64,000 nt of DNA from Bradyrhizobium septentrionale (GTDB taxonomy: Bacteria; Pseudomonadota; Alphaproteobacteria; Rhizobiales; Xanthobacteraceae): NCBI RefSeq assembly GCF_011516645.4, contig NZ_CP088285.1, forward strand, positions 5,040,501-5,104,500, written 5' to 3'. Below the pieces are notes generated by a model. The model was given only the letters and a program-made list of their open reading frames with translations. It was not told where the DNA came from and did not search any database. Positions 8,774 to 14,200 of this stretch are shown piece after piece (within the stretch, counting starts at the first letter, position 1; the number at the start of each line of letters is the position of its first letter). The position numbers and the translations under genes are program-made.

Positions 8774-9051
8774 GTCCATGGATGAATCTTCTCTCCGCAT
8801 TGCCGTGATAGCCCGTTTGGATCATGCGCCACCTTCGCATGCGCGGCAGAACAGAAGGCGCGGGAGGTGGAGCAATTACTGAGGCTGGTGGTCAATTTCA
8901 GAACGATCCGATGGCGGTGCGGATTACCGGCTTCGCAACTCTTTCGCTCCCCCTCCCGCACTTGACTTCACGGGCTCAGCTCTCGCTCCCCAAACCGGCG
9001 GCGCAGCCGATTGCGACGTGACGGGTCGAGACAGCCCGCGAACCGAGACAG

Positions 9052-9077
9052 AAAAGGCCGCCCTCGGGCGGCCTTTT
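9052..9077. terminator. Bidirectional intrinsic terminator
   Basis: A 12-bp perfect stem, AAAAGGCCGCCC pairing with GGGCGGCCTTTT, works on both strands. It can end transcription of the 8237-8773 gene from the left and of the 9181-9402 gene from the right. Confidence 0.8.
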
Positions 9078-9089
9078 CCGTGATCTTCG

Positions 9090-9155
9090 AGATCGCCAAG
9101 AGATCGCCAAGAGATCGCCAAGAGATCGCCAAGAGATCGCCAAGAGATCGCAAAG
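9090..9155. repeat. Six tandem copies of an 11-bp unit
   Basis: The unit AGATCGCCAAG repeats head to tail: five exact copies (9090-9144) and a sixth with one change (9145-9155). It lies between a terminator and the stop codon of the 9181-9402 gene, so in that gene's 3' untranslated region. Copy number is likely to vary between strains. Confidence 0.95.
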
Positions 9156-9180
9156 CGCGATTGTGGGCGATTGCTTCTGT

Positions 9181-9402
9181 CTATTGCTTGGCCGCGTCGT
9201 CGCCGGTCTTTTCCCCAGTCTTGGCGCTCGATTTCTTTGCGGCTTTCTTCGCCTTCTTCTTCGGCGCCATCTTGGACGCCTCGCCCTTGGCCGCGGTGTC
9301 GCCGCTTGCGGCGGGGGCCGGGCTCGTGCCCGCCTTGTCCTGCGCGAGTGCGGCGGACGAGACGAAGGCAAGCGCCGTGGCGGCGAGGATCAATGTTCGC
9401 AT
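9181..9402 (-). CDS. Small secreted Lys/Ala-rich protein
   Basis: The 73-residue protein has a clear signal peptide (MRTLILAATALAFVSSAALA, cleavage after ALAQ) and a mature part of about 50 residues that is low-complexity: Ala, Pro and Gly first, then a basic run KKKAKKAAKKSSAK. ATG 9402 follows a GGGAGA ribosome site; the frame is open further upstream but without signals. It resembles the small periplasmic basic proteins of rhizobia. Role unknown; charge suggests binding to nucleic acid or anionic envelope polymers. Its 3' untranslated region contains the 11-bp tandem repeat. Confidence 0.65.
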   Translation of the reverse strand: MRTLILAATALAFVSSAALAQDKAGTSPAPAASGDTAAKGEASKMAPKKKAKKAAKKSSAKTGEKTGDDAAKQ

Positions 9403-9582
9403 CGGATGGTTCTCCCAAGTTGGTTTCCAGCGCCCCTCAACGGGACAGAATGTCGCAGGTTCCGCGACCGCGATCAGCAGTCCGTGAGCAGCGCGTGAAC
9501 GGCGCAACCATCGCGCAGGCGTCGGAACCGGGAACCTCGAGCCGCGTTATGTCGCTGGGCAGGAGTTCCGAGGAGACGCGCC

Positions 9583-9790: not shown

Positions 9791-10162
9791 TTACTTCCGC
9801 AAGATCACCAGCGCTTCCCGATAGAGCTGCGAGAAGCAGACCAGCAGCGCGCTCGACAGCAGGAACATCGCGAGGCTGTCATAGTCTTCAGGGGTGGGCC
9901 AGCCGAAGTCGAAATAGGGCGGCATGAACGCCCACCAGACGATCGGAACCGTGATGATGGTGGCAAAGGCGCCGGCCGGCGCGCCGCCCATCAGGCCGGC
10001 GATCAGGATCGCCGGCACAAAACCCGCGAAATAGAGCTGCATGCCGAAGCTCGTGAACATCTCCTGAGTCGCGGTGGCGAGCACCACGGCCAGCAGGGCG
10101 ACCACGAACGTCGACAACGACCACGGCCGCAGCTTCAGAATGTAGTCATTGCCCTTGCGCAT
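9791..10162 (-). CDS. DUF4118-like membrane protein without a kinase
   Basis: The 123-residue protein is mostly four transmembrane helices: about residues 15-31, 44-60, 63-80 and 94-112. The pattern, with GFVPAILIAGLMGGAPAGAF in the middle, is that of the DUF4118 module normally found at the N-terminus of sensor histidine kinases such as KdpD. Here it ends after the last helix with no kinase domain, so it is either a free-standing membrane module or a relic. No partner gene is adjacent. Confidence 0.6.
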   Translation of the reverse strand: MRKGNDYILKLRPWSLSTFVVALLAVVLATATQEMFTSFGMQLYFAGFVPAILIAGLMGGAPAGAFATIITVPIVWWAFMPPYFDFGWPTPEDYDSLAMFLLSSALLVCFSQLYREALVILRK

Positions 10163-10346
10163 CGAGACGTCCCGGCCTCCGCGAGTTCCGGGAAGGTAGC
10201 CGAGGAGGCTCGCGAATAAAACACCGTAGGACTCCGTGGGGGGGGGCGGCGTTCTGTTCGATACCGTGAAAAGGAACCGGCCCGGTCAAGCCCCTGCCGC
10301 ATTGTCGCGCTTATTGCGTTGCGGCAAGGTGATTGGGGACGACACA

Positions 10347-10646
10347 ATGCTGGAGCTTCTGATTGTCGTTCTCGTCGCCGGGATCGGATTCGCATCGGGA
10401 TATGGCGTCCGCGAGCTGATTTCGCGCCGCCGGCGCCGGTCGCCGTTACGCGTTCACGCGCCGAAGGCGCGAGCCGCCAATGACGACATCTCGATGCAAG
10501 GCCGGCAGCGGCCGACCGGCACGCAACAGGCCAATCACGCCACCCCGCCCGACGAACTCGACGGCGCCGTTCGCGACCTGCTCGGCGAACTCAGCCGGCG
10601 CACCGCCAAGCCGTCATCATCGGCACAGCACCGCCGCCGGCAATGA
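10347..10646 (+). CDS. Small membrane-anchored hypothetical protein
   Basis: From ATG 10347, preceded by GGGGAC, the product is 99 residues. The first 20 form a hydrophobic helix (LELLIVVLVAGIGFASGYGV) followed by a strongly basic patch (RRRRR) and a polar, probably disordered tail containing a short helix (DELDGAVRDLLGELSRR). This predicts an N-out single-pass protein with a cytoplasmic tail. It ends just before the left attachment repeat of the tRNA island. Function unknown. Confidence 0.5.
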   Translation: MLELLIVVLVAGIGFASGYGVRELISRRRRRSPLRVHAPKARAANDDISMQGRQRPTGTQQANHATPPDELDGAVRDLLGELSRRTAKPSSSAQHRRRQ

Positions 10647-10674
10647 ACGAAAGCGGTCGATCTGCTGGGAGGGG

Positions 10675-10722
10675 ATGGTGGACGCACAAGGGATCGAACC
10701 TTGGACCTCTCCCGTGTGAAGG
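10675..10722. repeat. Left attachment-site copy: 3' half of tRNA-Val(CAC)
   Basis: These 48 bases are identical to 14125-14172, the 3' half of the intact tRNA-Val gene including the CCA end, T arm and anticodon loop. A lone tRNA 3' half facing the same way as the intact gene is the usual scar of an element integrated by a tyrosine recombinase. Confidence 0.88.
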
Positions 10723-10791
10723 CCCTCCCTGTGCTCGATTTTTCTAGGCTTTTTTGCTTCGAAATGCCGTTCCCCGGTTATTCCCCGCATT

Positions 10792-11499
10792 CTATTCTTC
10801 GATTTCATCGCTGAAATGGACAATGACAGGCATCACAACGGTCTGTCGCGCACCCGGATTCTCAGGGGCGGCTCGAGTTGCAAATGTCCAACTGACCGTC
10901 TTGCAAGTTCGACGTGAGTGTTTTGCGTTCGCGTAGCGATATGTGAGCTCGTACCTCAAGTGGGCTGACAAATGGTGCTCCAGCCCGTCGGTCTGCACGA
11001 CGGTGCGGACCGGAACGTCCTCCATCCTGACGAACAAGGTTTTCGAAGCATTGCCGTTGATAGGAAAGGATGCGTCCATTGGCTGGTCGAGATCCTTGCC
11101 GTTGATCGTCGCGAAAAGCTTGCCCTCAACCTCCATCAGCTTTGACATCGTGTTGAATAAATCGACGCCGAGCTCAACTGAGCAGGCCGGGTTGCGCGGG
11201 TAAACTGCCATCTTGGCAGTCGGCTTGCCTTCGACACGAAGGCTTCCGAGTTCCGGCCGGGATGAAAGCAGGTTGCGAATGCGGTCATCAGCATTCAGCG
11301 CAAGCCATAAGACGACAGCGATGATGCCGATCAGCACCGCTGCCGACGATACAATGAAAGATCGCTGTTCTGCCGAAAGGTGAGGAAGCCAGTAGCCGAG
11401 CTGCAGAGCTTTCTCGTTGAGGCCAAATGCGCCGGCAATGATGCGGACGGTGATCCAAGCCAAGAGGCCGACCACAACGCTGCTGATATATTTGCTCAT
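10792..11499 (-). CDS. Membrane-anchored hypothetical protein, island cargo
   Basis: The 235-residue protein has two N-terminal transmembrane helices (about residues 6-24 and 48-68, with VSSAAVLIGIIAVVLWLAL). A soluble domain of roughly 160 residues follows with an alternating beta pattern (YPRNPACSVELGVDLFN, then VEGKLFATINGKDLDQ). It ends with acidic residues (DEIEE). I do not recognise a family. It shares the anchor-plus-beta-domain plan with the neighbouring IS-split gene and is on the same strand, so the two may form a cassette. Confidence 0.6.
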   Translation of the reverse strand: MSKYISSVVVGLLAWITVRIIAGAFGLNEKALQLGYWLPHLSAEQRSFIVSSAAVLIGIIAVVLWLALNADDRIRNLLSSRPELGSLRVEGKPTAKMAVYPRNPACSVELGVDLFNTMSKLMEVEGKLFATINGKDLDQPMDASFPINGNASKTLFVRMEDVPVRTVVQTDGLEHHLSAHLRYELTYRYANAKHSRRTCKTVSWTFATRAAPENPGARQTVVMPVIVHFSDEIEE

Positions 11500-11549
11500 G
11501 AACTATGCGCGCTCTCGTCCTCATCCGGTCCCGACATTATCCCCAGTTC

Positions 11550-12118
11550 TCACGCGCCAGCCTTGCCGCCCTCCTGTTGCAAACTGTGATAGGTCTGCCC
11601 GAACGACGGATTGTACTTTTGCGCTTCTGCAAGTGGGACGACCGGTATCCAGAAACACTGCTTGTGATGAGTACCGAAGACGTCTTTCACCGCGACCTTC
11701 ACCCGCGTTCGATGCGACTTAGGAAACGGCATGAAGCCACCCCAGCTATCCCGCTGCTCGAAGTAAACCACCCCATTCACCGACTGGCCGGCTTGAAGAT
11801 AGACATCGGTCGAACGGCCCGTCGTTGCGCTTCCTTGAAATAATGACGGATATATTTTGATGTGCTGACCGACGTCCGCCTGGAAATCGGTCATCGTGAT
11901 GGCTGGCTGATCCAGCCAGTACCAAAAAAGACGATATCTCACCCACTCGAAGGTGAATCTTGGTCGAAGGTACCAGTGATATCCGAGGGACACGTTCTCA
12001 ATGCTTGTCGCCGCCGTTCCGACGTTGCTAACTCGCAGATATAAGGAGAGTGCGGTGCGATGGACCGGGAAATCCCCGTGTTTTGCACCAGTTGTGAAAG
12101 AGCTGGCGCCGGTTGTTT
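11550..12118 (-). pseudogene. C-terminal part of an IS-split membrane-anchored protein gene
   Basis: The frame is open from the IS3 edge to the stop at 11550. It does not begin at a real start: coding sequence continues upstream of the first GTG (11993) through TALSLYLRVSNVGTAATSIE. The segment looks like a beta-sandwich extracytoplasmic or cytoplasmic domain (SLGYHWYLRPRFTFEWVRYR, then SVNGVVYFEQRDSWGG). The missing N-terminus, with a membrane helix, lies on the other side of the IS at 13443-13657. Confidence 0.65.
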
Positions 12119-12244
12119 GGACAGCGCCCCGCGGGATTTAAGTGGATTCCTGCCGGGTTATGCTGAACGCGGGGCCTTACGATTTTGTCGTTGCGTCGGG
12201 AGGGCGTAGCCCGACCAGAGCGACGACAAAATCGTCGGCGACGG

Positions 12245-13072
12245 TCATGCGGCCATCACCATAGCTTGCGTGCCGAAGTAAGCCTCGTCGGGCGTGCGCC
12301 CGTCAAGGCTCGAGTGAGGGCGTCCCTGATTGTAGAAGGCCAGATACTTGGCAATTGACGCTCGCGCCTCGGACACGCTGTCGTAGGCGCGGAGATAAAC
12401 TTCTTCGTATTTGACCGTGCGCCAGAGCCGCTCGACAAACACGTTGTCGCGCCAGGCGCCCTTGCCGTCCATGCTGATGGCGATCTTCGCGTCCAGCAGC
12501 ACATCGGTGAACTCGAGGCTGGTGAACTGGCTGCCCTGGTCCGTGTTGAAAATCTCGGGCCTGCCGTGCTTCGCCAACGCCTCCTGGACCGCTTCGACGC
12601 AGAAGGCCGCCTCCATTGTGATCGAGACGCGATGGGCCAGGACCCGTCGGCTGAACACATCGACGACCGCCGCGAGATAGACGAAGCCACGCCGCATCGG
12701 AATGTAGGTGATGTCCATTGCCCACGCCTGGTCGGGCCGCTCGATCTTCAATCCGCGCAACAGGTACGGGTAGATCTTGTGACCCGGTGCCGGCTTACTC
12801 GTGTTCGGGCGACGATAGACCGCCTCGATCCCCATGCGCTTCATCAGCGTCGCGATGTGGCGGCGACCGGCGTATACGCCCTCCCGCCGCAGCAACGATC
12901 GCTGCATACGCGCTCCCGCGAAGGGATAATCGAGATGCAGCTCATCGAGCCGACGCATCAAGGCAAGGTCCTCGGCCGAAACTGGCCGAGGTTCATAGTA
13001 GACCGTGCTGCGAGCCAGCTTCAGGACCTTCGCCTGGCGCACGATAGAAAGATCATGACCGCGGTCGATCAT
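12245..13072 (-). CDS. IS3-family transposase OrfB (DDE integrase domain)
   Basis: The 275-residue protein has an N-terminal helix-turn-helix-like region (HTH_21: LHLDYPFAGARMQRSLLRRE) and an rve integrase core. The catalytic triad is Asp120 (WAMDITYIP), Asp178 (FNTDQGSQFTS) and Glu214 (NVFVERLWRTVKYEEVYL), with the 35-residue spacing typical of the DD(35)E group. It overlaps orfA by ATGA, so translational coupling or a -1 frameshift to make OrfAB is likely. The frame looks complete, so the element may be active. Confidence 0.92.
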   Translation of the reverse strand: MIDRGHDLSIVRQAKVLKLARSTVYYEPRPVSAEDLALMRRLDELHLDYPFAGARMQRSLLRREGVYAGRRHIATLMKRMGIEAVYRRPNTSKPAPGHKIYPYLLRGLKIERPDQAWAMDITYIPMRRGFVYLAAVVDVFSRRVLAHRVSITMEAAFCVEAVQEALAKHGRPEIFNTDQGSQFTSLEFTDVLLDAKIAISMDGKGAWRDNVFVERLWRTVKYEEVYLRAYDSVSEARASIAKYLAFYNQGRPHSSLDGRTPDEAYFGTQAMVMAA

Positions 13073-13374
13073 CGCTTTGCGCTCAGCAGGCCCGCCTTGG
13101 TGAGCGCGCCGGACAAAAAATCGTTTTCCAACGCCAGCTCGCCGATCTTGGCATGTAACGCCTTCAAATCGACCGGCGTCTCGGCCGACGCCTTGTCATG
13201 CCCAAACACGCCGGCGGCGCCTTCCAGGAGCTGGTTTTTCCAGATCGTGATCTGGTTCGGATGAACATCAAACAGTTGCGCCAGCTCCGCCAGCGTCTTG
13301 TCGCCTTTGACCGCAGCCAAAGCAACCTTCGCCTTGAATGCCGGAGAATGCATCCGGCGGCTCTTCTTCGTCAT
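13069..13374 (-). CDS. IS3-family transposase OrfA (HTH protein)
   Basis: The 101-residue protein begins at ATG 13374 behind a CAGGAG site. It has the HTH_Tnp_1 domain (HSPAFKAKVALAAVKGDKTL, then AQLFDVHPNQITIWKNQLLE) and a C-terminal leucine-zipper-like segment (LHAKIGELALENDFL) used for multimerisation with OrfB. It binds the IS ends. Confidence 0.9.
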   Translation of the reverse strand: MTKKSRRMHSPAFKAKVALAAVKGDKTLAELAQLFDVHPNQITIWKNQLLEGAAGVFGHDKASAETPVDLKALHAKIGELALENDFLSGALTKAGLLSAKR

Positions 13375-13442
13375 CTTCGCTCCTGATTCGCGGCAAGAAT
13401 CCTCGCCGCTGTCAGGCAGAAAATCCACTCAAGCTACTGTCC

Positions 13443-13657
13443 GAATTTGCGGAGCCAGCTCTGAACGTGGTGCACAGGGTGGGGCCGGGAATAATCGCTA
13501 ATTTGAGCTTCGGCTTTCTGCGAAGCGCTCCAAAAATTCCTGATGCCCACCCGAACAGGGCCGTTAACAAGAATATCGCGGCCGATACAACGCCTTGATT
13601 GTCGTTAAGCCATTTTTGAGCTTCGTTGTCGTTGAGCCAGCTCAGGATTGCGGCCAC
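13443..13657 (-). pseudogene. N-terminal part of the IS-split membrane-anchored protein gene
   Basis: The frame starts at ATG 13657 and gives an amphipathic N-terminus (SWLNDNEAQKWLNDNQGVV), one transmembrane helix (AAIFLLTALFGWASGIFGAL), a basic stop-transfer patch and the start of a beta domain (KLKLAIIPGPTLCTTF) before running into the IS. The continuation lies at 11550-12118. Removing the IS at the visible ends does not restore the frame exactly, so some bases were lost or the two halves come from related genes. Confidence 0.6.
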
Positions 13658-14124
13658 TAACGTCCCCCCATTTCATCGCTCCCCGCGGACCTTTCGCTTC
13701 GCAAAGACGGGGACCGGCAATAGGTCCGGCCGTCGAGCCTCGGCGCTCGCCATGGTGTGCTTATAGCGATCGGCCGAGTCCGGGTCCTTCGAGATGGCCT
13801 CTAAAGTTTCAACACTTAAAGGATGTCTCGGGGCAGAACAACAATCCGTAGATGCATGGTCTCGACTCTTATGTTCAGAAATCTACTCTTGCTCAACTCG
13901 CGGTCGGTCTCAGGTTGGGTCGTCCGGTGGCACGTCTCCCGGGATGATGCCATCCTGCCGGTGTTTTGCCCGACCGGTCAATCAAGTTCAGAAATGGCGT
14001 AACCCATTGATCCGGCTTGCGTCGGCTACTTTGCATGGGGTTGTTTTCGACATTTTTGATGAGGCGGTCCCGAAGGGCGCCAGAATGTCGTCAATCGTCC
14101 GTACCCGGCGGTTCAGGAAGGGGA
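13658..14124. other. Gene-poor right arm of the tRNA-Val island
   Basis: No frame here has a start, codon use and ribosome site that I would support. The part next to a tRNA 3' end is where an integrase gene would normally sit, and none is visible. The base composition is less GC-rich than the surroundings in 13800-14060. Confidence 0.5.
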
Positions 14125-14172
14125 ATGGTGGACGCACAAGGGATCGAACCTTGGACCTCTCCCGTGTGAAGG
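14125..14172. repeat. Right attachment-site copy, inside intact tRNA-Val
   Basis: The 48 bases equal 10675-10722. They form the 3' half of the working tRNA gene, so this end preserves the tRNA after integration. Confidence 0.88.
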
Positions 14173-14200
14173 GAACGCTCTCCCGCTGAGCTATGCGTCC
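14126..14200 (-). tRNA. tRNA-Val (CAC anticodon)
   Basis: Read on the minus strand it begins GGACGCATAGCTCAGCGGGA and ends with the GTTCGATCC T arm, GCGTCC acceptor and an encoded ACCA. The 7-base acceptor stem pairs fully, and the anticodon loop TTCACAC places CAC at 34-36, decoding GUG valine. Length is 75 with CCA. Its 3' half served as an integration site. Confidence 0.95.

Follow-up and report, generated by a model that had tools for sequence, protein, structure and literature searches.

A truncated island end at tRNA-Val(CAC) in Bradyrhizobium septentrionale, probably the remnant of a larger tyrosine-recombinase island

When a partial copy of a tRNA gene and the intact gene bracket foreign DNA, do the two copies mark the ends of one mobile element? 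The question is raised by a locus of Bradyrhizobium septentrionale, where an original prediction from the sequence saw an integrase-less island with tRNA-Val(CAC) at one end and a copy of its 3′ half at the other. The locus occupies 10675-14200 of a 64-kb stretch, here called the window (contig C2, 5040501-5104500, in a 10.41-Mb genome of four contigs); positions given alone are those of the window. Between the two tRNA-Val cores lie two cargo genes, one insertion sequence (IS) and one integrase stub. We consider it highly probable that the locus is the remnant left (attR) end of a larger tyrosine-recombinase island at tRNA-Val(CAC), an estimate that holds however the right end disappeared.

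The tRNA repeat itself is as originally described. ARAGORN, used to call the tRNA genes of the window, found tRNA-Val(CAC) at 14126-14200 on the minus strand as the sole tRNA gene, and the attachment core of the left end, at 10675-10722, matches all 48 bp of 14125-14172, which comprise 47 bp of the tRNA 3′ half and one further base. In the repeat search the similarity extended to 51 of 52 positions (10671-10722 and 14121-14172), with the single mismatch preceding the exact run. A 33-base probe from the repeat had two matches in the window and none in the 100 shuffles against which significance was judged. The far end of the foreign DNA thus carries the partial tRNA copy expected of an island. 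The DNA between the cores is also compositionally distinct, with a GC content of 0.547 at 10723-12098 and 0.551 at 13463-13914, compared with 0.655 and 0.661 in the flanks. It is missing from unoccupied relatives and is scarce elsewhere: the cargo DNA at 10723-12098 had weak matches in 7 of 264 other genomes, six of them spanning 31-45 bp and the seventh, in G158, reaching 65% identity over ~500 bp.

What does the site look like in relatives? The chromosomal left flank, F (9791-10646), which ends in an open reading frame (ORF) of 136 amino acids on the plus strand (10236-10646), is 85-88% identical in 16 relatives. These were drawn from the 17 other genomes matching F at 850 bits or more, G049 being omitted because its assembly is in 1310 contigs. 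Four of the 16 (G010, G069, G120 and G192) are unoccupied, with F followed by a stretch of ~105-130 bp that adjoins the tRNA (d), then the tRNA and no further 45-bp core, so that the empty site proposed for comparison does exist. Ten others carry the same core, in the order F, d, tRNA core and a left end of the form (A)CC(A/G)CAAT..., which is that of the islands of the tRNA-Val integrative and conjugative element (ICE) type. The remaining two, G183 and G004, are composite. A longer form of d, dlong, was matched in 234 of 265 genomes searched, with extra matches at other positions in several. We read the best dlong locus of each of the 30 best-matching genomes, and since 29 had a tRNA-Val core, intact or partial, on the same side within ~70 bp (the other lay at a contig edge), d and dlong are the native neighbor of tRNA-Val. 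We also considered whether d could be what remains of the right end of an old island, and rejected this, as d stands beside tRNA-Val cores in genomes that lack this left flank too.

The window departs from this order. Here dlong (13915-14125, plus strand) adjoins the 3′ end of the intact tRNA, while the partial copy stands beyond the cargo, preceded by a short flank variant without d that we call e (10647-10674); e followed by a core was found in one of 265 genomes, its own, in two places. Simple integration would place d next to the partial copy, so that we do not read the two repeats as simply the ends of one element, and the corresponding part of the original prediction is not supported: the 211 bp beside the tRNA are native and contain no recognizable right-end motif. 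It is because native dlong, and not the right end of an island, adjoins the tRNA that we speak of a remnant and not of a complete island. More generally, two copies of a tRNA half on either side of foreign DNA are not necessarily the two ends of one element, and the native order of the flanks should be checked in unoccupied relatives.

If only a left end is present, to what did it belong? The locus also contains a C-terminal stub of a tyrosine integrase (13673-13793, minus strand). Homology is confined to 13706-13789, where 26 of 28 residues are identical, and in a tblastn search of the window the stub scored E=4e-11, with the next best match at 1.6. The aligned residues include the stretch ...ADRYKHT..., which we take to hold the catalytic tyrosine. 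When 13660-13912 was used as query, seven other genomes matched: G248, G108, G093, G066 and G188 over ~80 bp at 13709-13793, G084 over 57 bp and G213 over 22 bp. Open frames of 395-426 codons terminate in the matched stretch in G248, G066 and G188; the G248 integrase measures 378 amino acids from its ATG. Full-length close relatives were found in 3 of 242 genomes and distant ones (41-47% identity) in five. Five relatives of 36-42% identity share TG.R or NG.R, H..(R/C)H and RY boxes, which we read as tyrosine-integrase signatures; L185, from G084, aligned badly and was omitted from the alignment. Since 13706-13789 corresponds to the C-terminal tail of the 378-residue integrase, the locus would not have been integrase-less by origin. 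The original statement that no integrase is visible is thus right in that the window holds no intact gene (none of the 36 Phage_integrase matches in the genome, 34 of them over the cut-off, lies within it) and wrong in that a C-terminal integrase stub remains. Such stubs occur elsewhere: one C-terminal piece of the same family is present in G108 and two in G093, likewise without a full gene (L181 2494-2640; L182 8732-8890; L183 8813-8956). The G108 piece begins at residue 327, both G093 pieces at 321 and that of the window at 342.

Two genomes with a complete integrase of this family also have tRNA-Val cores nearby. In G188 the integrase gene ends ~2.1 kb from a core (94% identical over 54 bp) with dlong in front of it; ~38 kb separate that core from the intact tRNA, a stretch read at its ends. 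G248 has two cores in tandem, the second 6.8 kb from the integrase gene. The left ends of the G188 island and of the second-core island of G248 share with the window an arm-like motif of the form TTCCCCG-n-TTCCCC. In the window it reads TTCCCCGGTTATTCCCC (10770-10786, plus strand) and starts 47 bp after GTGTGAAGG, at the end of the core; in both islands the version TTCCCCGTCTTTTCCCC stands at the same distance from GTGTGAAGG. Another version, TTCCCCCGTCATTCCCC, is found at the right end of the G188 island. Among the 26 end stretches tested, the motif was present in these four, namely the left ends of the window, G188 and the second G248 core and the right end of G188; 314 kb of the window's own chromosome contain it once. 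No arm-like or right-end motif was found on the right side of the window, beside the intact tRNA. The locus resembles the G188 and second-core G248 islands in core, motif distance and integrase family. It differs in that both of these have a complete integrase and other cargo, and that G188 has a motif-bearing right end. The integrase family and the recognizable end motif together could serve to find further islands of this kind.

Several observations weigh against assigning the locus to such an island. The alignable part of the integrase amounts to 28 residues, and the family falls below the Pfam cut-off for Phage_integrase (E values of 0.018 and 0.0027). In G066 the integrase is full-length and the 18 kb fetched contain no tRNA-Val core, and the first of the two G248 cores has no arm-like motif, a motif that was itself defined only after inspection of these ends. 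The cargo is not common to the G188 and G248 islands either: comparison of the left-end stretches gave no match, the cargo DNA was unmatched in both genomes, and the 235-residue cargo protein described below was unmatched there by protein search. Finally, no trace of an outer tRNA copy, on which one route of loss depends, was detected in 13794-13914 or in G183 and G004, which belong to the same flank group.

How, then, could an island lose its right end and leave a native flank beside the tRNA? We suggest that an island of the stub's integrase family integrated in a tRNA-Val(CAC) core and that a later event cut inside the integrase, which would have removed ~340 codons, the rest of the island and the right attachment end. 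About the last 40 codons of the integrase are now left, and no right end of the island is recognizable. The native flank beside the intact tRNA would be explained most simply if the island had used the outer copy of a tandem pair, and had been lost together with that outer copy or core. Outer copies of this kind do exist. Among 16 other genomes examined (copies at loci L151, L157, L158, L189, L163, L146, L144 and L165), ARAGORN called a complete second tRNA-Val(CAC), 92% identical, beyond dlong in G043 (L151), and partial or degenerate copies were found beyond dlong at E<0.001 in G105, G013, G209 (twice), G122, G177, G198 and G199, and at 0.002 in G002. Such copies suggest that islands could be gained and lost with the working tRNA left unharmed. 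Because neither 13794-13914 nor G183 or G004 holds an outer copy, the tandem step is unproven, and we put this particular route slightly short of an even chance. A 20-mer at 13834-13853 (plus strand) resembles, with three mismatches, the left end of the tRNA-Val symbiosis ICEs; it was matched once in the window and in none of 100 shuffles, and the exact 17-base form of that left end occurs in 13 of 199 fetched loci. It may, tentatively, mark a second decayed island, a suggestion weakened by the lack of a significant core before 13838 (rank 2807 of 128000).

The main rival concerns this route alone and is already included in the probability that we give to the remnant as a whole. The locus could be a chimera in which an occupied site recombined with DNA of an unoccupied one, so that the right half was replaced and not deleted. 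The left flank does carry e, which lacks d, and the right side carries dlong; 250 kb away there is also a copy of the left flank (94-95% identical) that has a tRNA-Val core of its own, indicating that stretches of flank do move. However, no clear sign of separate origins emerged when the left and right flanks were compared in identity with the 16 relatives, and no homology was recognized at the presumed left crossover; we regard replacement as rather unlikely. A further rival, an integrase-less mini-element comparable to a cis-mobilizable element (CIME), with an attachment site that includes dlong and moved in trans by another integrase, takes up one of the two alternatives in the original prediction. 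The 48-bp cores on both sides would suit it, as would a comparable 2.2-kb unit in G183 with dlong on either side (L113 4845-7075, bracketed by a tRNA-Val core and the intact tRNA), and a helper could come from the genome's 36 Phage_integrase matches, of which one lies next to another tRNA-Val core. Against it stand the integrase stub inside the locus, the right side without an arm-like motif and the status of dlong as native flank. The stub's integrase also has no relative in its own genome at E<=1e-30. We think a mini-element very improbable. To excise by its original route the element would require a right arm and a cognate integrase, and neither a right arm nor a close integrase was found in the genome; mobilization in trans thus appears unlikely, and the remnant is expected to be immobile.

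A broader form of the same idea is that the tRNA-Val site of Bradyrhizobium harbors a group of tiny units without an integrase, such as those of the window and G183, whose attachment site includes dlong and which would pass as cassettes from host to host by way of homology in dlong and the tRNA, through either a foreign integrase or simple recombination; we hold this, too, to be very doubtful. Least probable of all, and close to negligible, is that the repeat arose by duplication of the tRNA half, or is an old tRNA copy, and that no island was ever involved. Outer degenerate tRNA-Val copies do occur in the genus, but the 48 unchanged base pairs, the drop in GC content, the family end motif, the integrase stub and a cargo missing in relatives all speak against it. 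The remnant of a larger island thus remains our preferred reading, and of the two alternatives originally offered it is the decayed island, with foreign DNA tied to a tRNA-Val core and an integrase stub, that fits the locus.

In kind, the locus is an ordinary genomic scar. tRNA-Val(CAC) is an already published attachment site of Bradyrhizobium symbiosis ICEs: in the parts of the literature consulted, the most prevalent symbiosis ICE of the genus is described as bipartite and located at tRNA-Val (PMC9174649, PMC9239051), and strain USDA110 is reported to carry a 45-bp partial tRNA-Val copy that S23321 is without (PMC4036050). The locus resembles these elements in its attachment gene, given as tRNA-Val with the CAC anticodon in the consulted part of PMC4036050, and in its partial tRNA copy, of 45 bp there. 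In the relatives that we read, the partial copy of the symbiosis ICE type ends in GTGTGAA. The sequence that follows the core in the window is, however, not (A)CCACAAT..., the similar word being the 20-mer at 13834-13853, and the locus is far smaller, with no symbiosis, type IV secretion or other transfer genes between its cores; nodA of the same genome is at C2:909799, ~4.1 Mb away. Decay and tandem accretion at attachment sites, and the definition of CIMEs, are covered in the sections consulted of PMC5704250. The locus shares with a CIME as defined there its nature as a small remnant, the lack of integration and transfer genes, and a position at an attachment core within a site of tandem cores. 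A CIME, however, retains both attL and attR, whereas the window has a left end only, its right side being native. The locus would thus be one more decayed element at a known integration hot spot.

The cargo had been described as two membrane-anchored proteins and an IS3 element. Both proteins and the IS are present, the second protein being one gene split by the IS. The first protein, of 235 amino acids, is encoded by an intact ORF at 10792-11499 on the minus strand. Apart from itself it has one homolog, 41% identical, in Bradyrhizobium sp. AZCC 1708; it was present in one of 265 genomes searched, its own, and had no Pfam or NCBIfam match. The second gene, also on the minus strand, comprises an N-terminal part with the hydrophobic anchor at 13463-13657, assigned by eye from the N-terminal consensus of the family, and a severed C-terminal part at 11550-12098. 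The two pieces were compared separately, and homologs measure ~220-264 amino acids. The C-terminal piece had 55 protein matches, its own included, one of them from Polaromonas sp. For both proteins the putative membrane anchor is a hydrophobic N-terminal stretch judged by eye. Searches of the cargo with PADLOC, NCBIfam and Pfam returned nothing but one weak, sub-threshold Pfam match of a homolog. The predicted structure of a homolog, P0003 (mean pLDDT 83.1, pTM 0.74), combines an N-terminal helix with a beta-rich domain, and comparison with the PDB gave no functional lead, the query TM-score being at most 0.32 among the best 50 matches listed. A role in the cell envelope would be a guess.

The IS occupies 12099-13462 on the minus strand and splits the second cargo gene. 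Its terminal inverted repeats are imperfect, its transposase is encoded in two ORFs (13069-13428 and 12245-13072) with rve and HTH_Tnp_1 domains, and its target duplication is 3 bp long, GAA; these are the features expected of an IS3-type element. The family name is presumptive and follows the original label. Three more copies, 99.9-100% identical and each flanked by its own 3-bp duplication, lie at C2:5.16-5.25 Mb, within the neighboring 250 kb searched.

The two composite relatives carry elements of their own. The 2.2-kb unit of G183 encodes MerR-, MerT- and MerP-like proteins, of which MerP is over the NCBIfam cut-off and the MerR- and MerT-like proteins below it; no integrase was found among its ORFs of at least 100 amino acids. 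In G004, an integrase of 487 amino acids (L109 11729-16127) lies between a tRNA-Val core and a second-core-like word, CCCTCTCAAGG, and its neighbors are an amidase and a RelE/ParE-type toxin-antitoxin pair. We considered the G004 arrangement as a third mini-element and rejected it, since the stretch from the amidase to dlong is read as native (the amidase stretch is 98.6% identical in G183) and the integrase adjoins another core. An integrase 92% identical to that of G004 is present in the window's own genome at C2:4855798, beside CCCTCTCAAGG as well.

The flank copy 250 kb away accompanies a third tRNA-Val 3′ fragment, in inverse orientation (L104 3138-6488, also L003; C2:5298137-5301487). 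The fragment adjoins the 94-95% copy of 10029-10646 and lies ~1.4 kb from a tyrosine integrase ORF of 414 amino acids, one of the Phage_integrase matches of the genome, so that a piece of chromosomal flank seems to have traveled with an island. The ORFs next to this integrase are presumably IS66-like. The left end of the G183 unit resembles that of the L104 element, and tRNA-Arg(CCG) lies ~19 kb beyond the third fragment. Outside the island, at 8924-9418 of the window, the translations show a short repeat (AISWRSLGDLLAISWRSLGDL).

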